NCBI GenBank assembly: GCA_030066595.1
Contig: JASJBI010000004.1
Location: forward strand, 62,001-126,000
Length of the DNA stretch: 64,000 nucleotides
Direction: 5' to 3'
DNA from: Alphaproteobacteria bacterium
GTDB taxonomy: Bacteria; Pseudomonadota; Alphaproteobacteria; JAJFFI01
Below the pieces are notes generated by a model. That model saw only the letters and a list, made by a program, of their open reading frames with translations, ran no database searches and was not told the DNA's origin. Positions 37,882 to 50,265 of this stretch are shown piece after piece (position 1 is the stretch's first letter; every line of letters begins with the position of its first letter). Both the position numbers and the translations under genes were made by a program.

Positions 37882-38024
37882 AAAAAAAGAAGGCCGGGCG
37901 GGTCGCCCGGCCTTGAGTATCGGAGTTTGGAGAGGTGGCTCCAAAAAAGGAAATACCCGTCGGTCACAAGAACCTGACTCGATCCCTTTTCTGAAACCGC
38001 TCGGCAGTTGGGGGACTGCCGATG
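37882..38024 (-). ncRNA. Predicted Crp-controlled small RNA with C-rich hairpin loops
   Basis: On the minus strand a -10 box TATAGT (38036-38031) predicts a start near 38024. The 143-nt transcript opens with an 8-bp hairpin (38015-38022 with 38001-38008, loop CCCCCA). A 7-bp hairpin follows (37939-37945 with 37926-37932, loop CCACCT), and it ends in a textbook terminator (37890-37914 then seven Ts). C-rich single-stranded loops that can pair with Shine-Dalgarno sequences are common in alphaproteobacterial regulatory RNAs. No open reading frame of note is present. A perfect Crp-type site is centred about 41.5 bases upstream of the start. Expression is predicted, not shown. Confidence 0.6.
37890..37914 (-). 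terminator. Intrinsic terminator on the minus strand
   Basis: AAGGCCGGGCG (37890-37900) and CGCCCGGCCTT (37904-37914) form a perfect 11-bp stem with a 3-base loop, followed on the minus strand by C then seven Ts. It ends transcription coming from the crp-like gene or the predicted small RNA before the grxC promoter. Confidence 0.9.
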
Positions 38025-38057
38025 AAAGTGACTATATGTCAGGCGCCGCCGCCAAGA

Positions 38058-38073
38058 TGTGATCTCCGTCACA
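38058..38073. promoter_or_regulatory. Perfect Crp-type binding site
   Basis: TGTGA and TCACA arms separated by six bases match the Crp consensus exactly. The centre (38065.5) is 41.5 bases upstream of the predicted small-RNA start near 38024, the class II activator position. The adjacent Crp-family gene has a recognition helix (TTRETVARVM) of the type that reads TGTGA. Confidence 0.75.
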
Positions 38074-38110: not shown

Positions 38111-38833
38111 TCAGACCGAGTGGAAATGCTCGACCATGTCCTCGAGCTTTTCCACGTTGAGGATAACCAGAGCATCACGCTCTCGCCGGACCAATTCCCT
38201 CTTGGCAAGATCGCTCATCACCCGGGCGACGGTCTCGCGCGTGGTGCTGGCGCGGCTCGCCATGTCCGCGTGGATCGGGATGGGCGAAATGCGCGCCGTG
38301 TTGTCGTCGCGTATGCCCGGTCGCGCTTCCCGCAGGATCTCCGCCATGACCCGGTTGTTGGCGCCCAGCGTGCTGAGATCCATGATCCGCATGGTCGACT
38401 CCCGGATGATCCGCACCAAACGGCCCATCAGCGGTAGCGCCAGTTCGGATCTGCTCCGGATCAGATCGAGGAACGCCTCTTGCGGCAGGATCGCGACCAA
38501 TGTGGGCTGCAGGGCGACCACGTTGGCTGAGCGCGGCTCGTTGTCGATCGCGGCCAGCTCACCGAAGAAACCGCCGGGCCCGATGTCGTCGAAGCTGATC
38601 TCCCGTCCGGTGAAGGAATAGATCACCACGCGCGCCAGACCCTCGACGACAAAGAACACGTCTCGCGTGTCGCTGTCGTGATCGATGATCTGCTCGTGCG
38701 CGCTGTAGCTCTTCCAAACGCACCTCTTTTCGAGCTCCGCCCGTTTGGCCTCGGGCAGGGCGGTCAGCAGCGGAATCTCTGAGAGCGTATGGTTCACGCC
38801 GACTCGAACCTCCGCAGAGCGCGTTTTCACCAT
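38111..38833 (-). CDS. Crp/Fnr-family transcriptional regulator
   Basis: This 240-residue protein has a cyclic-nucleotide-binding-like beta-roll (about 20-140, with FFVVEGLARVVIYSFTGREI and GPGGFFGELAAIDNEPRSAN) and a C-terminal winged helix with SRASTTRETVARVMSDLAKR. The RETVxR helix is Crp-like, not Fnr-like. The phosphate-binding cassette GELAAIDNEPRSA keeps key positions of cAMP binders. There is no N-terminal cysteine cluster for an Fnr iron-sulfur centre. It probably controls the TGTGA site just downstream and other genes. Confidence 0.9.
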   Translation of the reverse strand: MVKTRSAEVRVGVNHTLSEIPLLTALPEAKRAELEKRCVWKSYSAHEQIIDHDSDTRDVFFVVEGLARVVIYSFTGREISFDDIGPGGFFGELAAIDNEPRSANVVALQPTLVAILPQEAFLDLIRSRSELALPLMGRLVRIIRESTMRIMDLSTLGANNRVMAEILREARPGIRDDNTARISPIPIHADMASRASTTRETVARVMSDLAKRELVRRERDALVILNVEKLEDMVEHFHSV

Positions 38834-38952
38834 GGCAAACTACCGAATACGATTGCAAATTCCATAACAATTCTCGAAACCGAGCGGGATTGTGGCGGTC
38901 GATCGCCGGCAACCTAGATCGAGAGGCGTAGGGCAAATATGAGGAAACTCAC

Positions 38953-39321
38953 ATGGCAAAGAATGAAACCGTCGAGCTGGCAGTCGGCGATTGGTGGGTT
39001 GGACTGGCGGCGGCCAAGGCCGCGCCCATCCCCGACGGCGCGCGTTCCGCGCTCTTGATGCAGCATGGCAGCATGCGGTTGCGCTACTACGCGCCCAAGG
39101 GACGTGACGCGCAAACCCCGCACGATCAGGACGAACTCTATGTCGTCGCCGCCGGCAGCGGGACGTTCGTGCTGAACGGGATGCGGCGGACCTTTGGCCC
39201 GGGCGACGCGCTCTTCGCGCCGGCCGGCGCGGAGCACCGCTTCGAAGACTTCAGCGAGGACTTCGGAACCTGGGTGGTGTTCTACGGGCCGAAGGGCGGG
39301 GAACGGCCAGATAGCGCCTAG
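38953..39321 (+). CDS. Cupin-domain protein
   Basis: This 122-residue single-domain cupin has motif 1 as HDQDELYVVAAGSGTFVLNG and motif 2 as PAGAEHRFEDF, keeping the His/Glu/His metal ligands. No enzyme activity can be named from sequence. It is divergent from the Crp-family gene across 119 bases and ends four bases into the convergent comF gene. Confidence 0.87.
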   Translation: MAKNETVELAVGDWWVGLAAAKAAPIPDGARSALLMQHGSMRLRYYAPKGRDAQTPHDQDELYVVAAGSGTFVLNGMRRTFGPGDALFAPAGAEHRFEDFSEDFGTWVVFYGPKGGERPDSA

Positions 39322-50164: not shown

Positions 50165-50265
50165 TGAGGTTGGCTTAGTTGGCTGCCCTGTCAGCCAGTA
50201 ACCCAATCCCTCGTTGACGCCTCCCTGTTAACCTGAGCCGCGGTTCGCCGCGGCTCTTTTTTTTT
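50165..50265 (+). ncRNA. Candidate small RNA ending in a strong orphan terminator
   Basis: A perfect + strand terminator (50235-50265) has no + strand gene before it for more than 3 kb, while the nearest genes on both sides run on the minus strand. Upstream lies AT-rich DNA with weak promoter-like boxes. The segment contains a 6-bp hairpin (TGGCTG 50180-50185, CAGCCA 50192-50197) and a C/T-rich single-stranded section (CGCCTCCCTG) able to pair with ribosome-binding sites. The 5' end is a guess. Confidence 0.4.
50235..50265 (+). terminator. Intrinsic terminator
   Basis: GAGCCGCGG (50235-50243) pairs with CCGCGGCTC (50248-50256) around a TTCG tetraloop, followed by nine Ts (50257-50265). The tetraloop and T-run make this one of the clearest terminators in the window. 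No coding gene ends just before it on the + strand. Confidence 0.95.

Follow-up and report, generated by a model that had tools for sequence, protein, structure and literature searches.

In the window, that is, the whole 64,000-nt stretch of alphaproteobacterial DNA analysed here, the gene of a Crp-family regulator and the 143-nt RNA predicted downstream of it appear to form a genuine, previously undescribed unit of regulator and small RNA. We consider it quite probable that Crp activates a class II promoter from which this RNA is made and that the RNA pairs with the ribosome-binding sites of its target mRNAs. Most likely, it is a Crp-activated, trans-acting small RNA and a new, regulator-linked sister of the alpha-r8 family, which in places has become dual-function. 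The features of the unit are given below in the order in which they are read.

38911..38953, minus strand: candidate class II promoter for crp itself, the weaker one, with a one-mismatch Crp site (TGTGAGTTTCCTCATA, 21 nt, TAGGTT)
38111..38833, minus strand: Crp-family regulator gene, 240 aa, assigned by Pfam domains, recognition helix and cassette
38058..38073, minus strand: putative Crp site TGTGACGGAGATCACA, a perfect TGTGA-N6-TCACA, 37 nt past the crp stop codon
38031..38036, minus strand: -10 box TATAGT, at class II spacing, 21 nt downstream of the Crp site
37882..38024, minus strand: predicted 143-nt small RNA with its start at 38024 or 38023, fold z -5.5 and no small ORF
38001..38022, minus strand: 5' hairpin with the loop CCCCCA, from folding; a hairpin is at +1 in most of 22 relatives
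37937..37998, minus strand: central stem abutting the core, from folding
37925..37936, minus strand: unpaired anti-Shine-Dalgarno (anti-SD) core ACCUCUCCAAAC, from folding; relatives keep (CC)UCCUCUCCAAACGC
37883..37948, minus strand: match of the covariance model R1, 49.7 bits, E=2.3e-12
37882..37914, minus strand: intrinsic terminator with an 11-bp stem and a T-run, from sequence and folding

The regulator encoded at 38833-38111 contains the cNMP_binding (1.1e-19) and HTH_Crp_2 (6.3e-11) domains of Pfam. The cassette GELAAIDNEPRSA (GEL-AIDG-PRSA, i.e. GEL..PRSA) and the recognition helix STTRETVARV, which correspond to the GEL..RSA and RETV.R signatures of the Crp family, are common to nearly all the orthologs and near-invariant among them. 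The R-E-x-x-x-R arrangement is the means by which CRP of E. coli reads TGTGA. An earlier note on this DNA had placed a Crp-family gene with a helix fitting the site just upstream of the RNA, and both the domains and the helix agreed with it. Against the enterobacterial CRP equivalog model, the regulator scored just 58.9 bits where the cut-off is 266. Autoregulation of crp through the site at 38953-38911 is possible; this upstream site with class II spacing is present in the window and was not conserved among the relatives. The same site overlaps the start codon of a divergent cupin gene.

The palindrome at 38073-38058 was the sole perfect match in the 64-kb window, and shuffled sequences predict 0.01 such matches. 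When two mismatches were tolerated, 14 matches were found against 13.75 expected, and because such matches occur at the chance rate only the perfect one is informative. With the RNA start at 38024 or 38023, the centre of the site falls at -41.5 or -42.5, and together with the -10 box at 38036-38031 this gives the geometry of a class II Crp-dependent promoter (TGTGA-N6-TCACA near -41.5 plus a -10 box). Thus, the perfect site centred 41.5 bases before a predicted start and the TATAGT box of the earlier note were both found in place.

For the 143-nt RNA, the predicted fold has an energy of -62.6 kcal/mol, compared with -41.7 +/- 3.8 for its shuffles, and the predicted transcript contains no ORF of 15-60 aa that starts with ATG, GTG or TTG and has a stop. 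Its end in an intrinsic terminator was as the earlier note had proposed and is supported by prediction. Of the two hairpins with C-rich loops in that proposal, the one with CCCCCA was certain and the one with CCACCT lay outside the predicted ensemble. The UUGGAG-CCACCT-CUCCAA repeat does exist, but the longer central stem takes its left arm, and therefore the hairpin is absent from the ensemble. The six nucleotides preceding the core pair upstream with a probability of 0.99 in the folding ensemble, and the bases of ACCUCUCCAAAC are unpaired with a probability of mostly at least 0.92 each. The proposal that C-rich hairpin loops pair with ribosome-binding sites needs a change: the likely segment is an unpaired linker after a hairpin, as in alpha-r8, rather than a hairpin loop. 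In the folding model, ACCUCUCC, which is unpaired and follows the longer stem, is probably the part that pairs.

The site, its spacing, the RNA anatomy, the conservation and the crp linkage were all computed here; activation, a ligand, Hfq and targets are our inference, as follows. The Crp-family protein, probably in its cyclic nucleotide-bound form, would bind TGTGACGGAGATCACA centred around -41.5 and, judging from the geometry, would activate the class II promoter directly 3' of its own gene. The product would be a 143-nt RNA made of a protective 5' hairpin, the central stem, the exposed ACCUCUCC and the intrinsic terminator. The exposed ACCUCUCC would most likely base-pair, probably on Hfq, at the ribosome-binding sites of target mRNAs, and by analogy with the alpha-r8 RNA SisA this pairing would repress the targets. 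SisA of Caulobacter represses mRNAs at ribosome-binding sites on Hfq (PMC12559287), and we take the window RNA to be most likely a trans-acting repressor because its exposed ACCUCUCC directly follows a hairpin, which is the layout of SisA. Such a unit would link cyclic-nucleotide signalling to post-transcriptional control by a route that can be tested directly.

The conservation of the unit was sought with the Crp protein as query because a DNA search for the RNA in its own family and order (two genomes) returned only its own copy. The ortholog loci gathered in this way, of which 61 were usable, form an uneven sample, and the searches in the orders of G087 and G306 (few genomes) contributed nothing. 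In 22 of the 61 loci, a site with no more than one mismatch was present within 200 nt past the crp stop codon; in shuffled sequence this was seen in about 0.8% of loci. Over these 22 loci, the mean -10 log-odds gave a lone peak of +2.35 at 21 nt and values of about -3 to -7.7 at the other spacings between 10 and 35. In sliding-window folding of the same loci, the mean z fell to -1.8 at the predicted +1, lay close to zero both upstream of it and across the ~75 nt that follow, and dipped again, more weakly, near +84. The site, the 21-nt spacing, the +1 hairpin, the anti-SD core and the terminator recurred after orthologous crp genes in several orders, and the genes downstream of the unit varied from locus to locus. 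At one locus (L028), the usual arrangement of site and -10 box is preceded by a tandem array of degenerate TGTGACGGCGATCC-like repeats.

Seven relatives, the window not being one of them, supplied the 3' parts from which the covariance model R1 was built. The search with a covariance model beside homologous crp genes, which the earlier note had proposed, thus had a held-out sequence to find, and R1 matched the window RNA precisely where it was expected, with 49.7 bits (E=2.3e-12), the next-best place in the window reaching 14 bits. Across 385 genomes of the class, eight matches exceeded 40 bits; these were the window and the seven loci used for training, all of them adjoining crp, and the next tier (up to 37 bits) was largely canonical alpha-r8. 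A scan of the whole window against Rfam at gathering thresholds gave no match, and the crp-linked RNA family is absent from Rfam 15 at its cut-offs. That a palindrome and a terminator had come together by chance without an RNA gene would agree with the chance rate of weaker sites in the window; however, the conservation and the held-out match already disfavour this explanation, and we find it scarcely credible. Conservation in relatives, on which the earlier note had staked its claim, was seen for the site in 22 of the 61 loci and for a hairpin at +1 in most of these, and the conserved linkage to crp across orders supports its idea of a compact regulator-sRNA module, in which the transcript itself is predicted.

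The same loci bear on whether the RNA has a promoter of its own. It could instead belong to the crp mRNA as its 3' untranslated region, made by read-through to the terminator, with any small RNA cut out by a ribonuclease. No terminator was seen between the crp stop codon and the site, and therefore crp probably shares the terminator of the RNA. However, a conserved class II promoter with the fixed 21-nt spacing and a +1 hairpin lie between crp and the RNA in the 22 loci, and because a pure 3' untranslated region needs neither, they count against this origin, which we consider unlikely. The own promoter and the 3' untranslated route may both operate, and the RNA may also act as the terminator of crp.

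On the other side of the RNA, the glutaredoxin gene grxC (37775-37515) is the next gene on the identical strand, and one relative (L016) has the matching order, as would be expected if the RNA were not a separate unit and served as an attenuating leader of grxC. This reading is very improbable: a grxC gene lies close to crp at just 2 of 65 loci, compared with about 41 at which crp is followed by the RNA. The terminator is also a strong one, and the TATATACT immediately preceding grxC points to a separate promoter for that gene. With grxC unlinked in the other loci and following in just one relative, the leader reading was rejected.

The unit takes a second form in the Azospirillales, where a near-invariant RNA of ~95 nt occupies the corresponding position. 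Its core ACCTCCTTATGAGGCTCCCTTCATCT is invariant and its terminator loop is variable. Niveispirillum cyanobacteriorum, a culturable relative, has this form (L024); the species of the window is probably uncultured. A degenerate palindrome, GTGT-N10-ACAC, which departs from the TGTGA form, was seen before the RNA at L044, L050-L052, L055 and other Azospirillales loci. Its centre lies 41-43 nt before the -10 box, compared with 29 nt in the TGTGA form, and is thus ~13 nt farther upstream. About 20 of the 61 ortholog loci show neither form of the unit.

The window RNA resembles the alpha-r8/MmgR/SisA-D RNAs (PMC12559287), which are likewise alphaproteobacterial and have a hairpin, an unpaired C/U-rich anti-SD stretch and an intrinsic terminator; the alpha-r8 features of a hairpin just 5' of the core and of an intrinsic terminator are both present. 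The Rfam model of this family (RF00519, suhB) matched the window RNA at the exact place with 27.9 bits, short of the gathering cut-off of 41 bits, and sub-threshold matches were found at the corresponding place in five relatives (L008, L011, L016, L044 and L064). On this likeness, the RNA could be an ordinary alpha-r8/MmgR member adjoining crp by accident, which we regard as doubtful. The unpaired 10-mer of alpha-r8, UUUCCUCCCU, is not in the window RNA, which carries ACCUCUCC, and one relative (L040) does carry UUUUCCUCCCU. In contrast to the alpha-r8 RNAs, the window RNA is longer, has an extra 5' hairpin, adjoins crp and a Crp site and not FGase, the usual alpha-r8 place, and coexists with a canonical copy; this alpha-r8, with 59.7 bits, is located elsewhere in the same genome beside the FGase gene. 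Control genomes too gave weak RF00519 matches (E<=1), and similarity to RF00519, being below the cut-off, was rejected as a proof of membership. Because the cut-off and the 10-mer failed and the genomic place differs, the window RNA was not filed as alpha-r8. The layout of its 3' part suggests a common origin with alpha-r8, with the caution that RNAs made of an anti-SD stretch plus a terminator are generically alike. In both Caulobacter and Sinorhizobium, the probable sister family acts on carbon utilisation. A second alpha-r8-like candidate was noticed in the window at 50209-50264 on the plus strand; it has an anti-SD-like GCCUCCC and a terminator and scored 29 bits with RF00519 (G000:C88:112201-112271) and 14 bits with R1.

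Regulator genes that adjoin a small RNA activated by their product are known in SgrR-SgrS/SgrT, OxyR-OxyS and GcvA-GcvB, and these pairs are divergent. The unit shares with SgrR-SgrS/SgrT (SgrST also PMC8672173) the regulator beside the RNA, and, as among the relatives here, SgrS has its small ORF in only some species. It differs from all three pairs in that regulator and RNA are unrelated to theirs and the RNA lies on the same strand, 3' of the regulator. Known CRP-controlled RNAs include CyaR, Spot 42, AzuCR and VcdRP (PMC8672173). VcdRP of Vibrio cholerae has a 29-aa ORF, comparable to that in some relatives, a C-rich pairing segment in its 3' part and a terminator, but it is CRP-repressed, is not linked to crp, and differs in sequence and bacterial class, and the window RNA is without an ORF (PMC8672173). 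CyaR of enterobacteria is a CRP-activated small RNA (cited in PMC8672173) and, unlike the window RNA, is not known to be linked to crp. SorX and SorY of Rhodobacter sphaeroides have a CCUCC stretch and a GC-rich terminator at the 3' end as well; their models matched the window RNA weakly, with 20.6 and 19.1 bits for cut-offs of 46.6 and 111. We found no description of a crp-linked small RNA in Rhodospirillales or Azospirillum in the open-licence literature. In non-model Alphaproteobacteria, the regulator is known for few small RNAs; here regulator and RNA are linked, with the promoter geometry fixed across orders.

In some orders, the transcript is predicted to encode in addition a single-span membrane peptide of ~30 aa. 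A predicted ORF of 29-32 codons was found in eight loci (L008, L009, L010, L012, L017, L037, L038 and L042), where it is flanked by the 5' hairpin and the part that holds CCTCC and the terminator. These ORFs mostly have a purine-rich ribosome-binding site and encode a hydrophobic stretch of membrane-crossing length (Kyte-Doolittle ~2). Changes between the ORFs of close relatives avoid the second codon position (e.g. 4, 1 and 10 changes at positions 1, 2 and 3), and this sparing is the pattern expected of a coding sequence. The peptides of 29-32 aa, which are conserved, matched no family of Pfam or NCBIfam. The ORF is present in L018, L019 and L023, where the small RNA end is not evident. The window RNA lacks the combination of a small ORF and a ribosome-binding site upstream of the pairing segment that marks a dual-function RNA. 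It is about evenly balanced whether one ancestral Crp-activated transcript, fixed directly 3' of the regulator gene, switched during alphaproteobacterial evolution between pure regulation as an anti-SD RNA, dual function with an encoded membrane peptide of ~30 aa, and service as an mRNA for the peptide alone. If this is true, the loci form a natural series of gain and loss of coding in a small RNA under one unchanged promoter, and the peptide-bearing relatives are a rare comparative set on how RNAs turn dual-function. Regulator-adjacent small RNAs and CRP-controlled RNAs are known kinds; what is new is that a single conserved promoter is followed by a noncoding form in some loci and by a coding one in others.

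Elsewhere in the genome of the window, some other class II-like Crp sites precede membrane-protein ORFs of 38 aa and 43 aa (L146 and L139/L142). These loci are located at C95:22853, C29:97138 and C74:2229, and L139 and L142 are identical sequences on two contigs.
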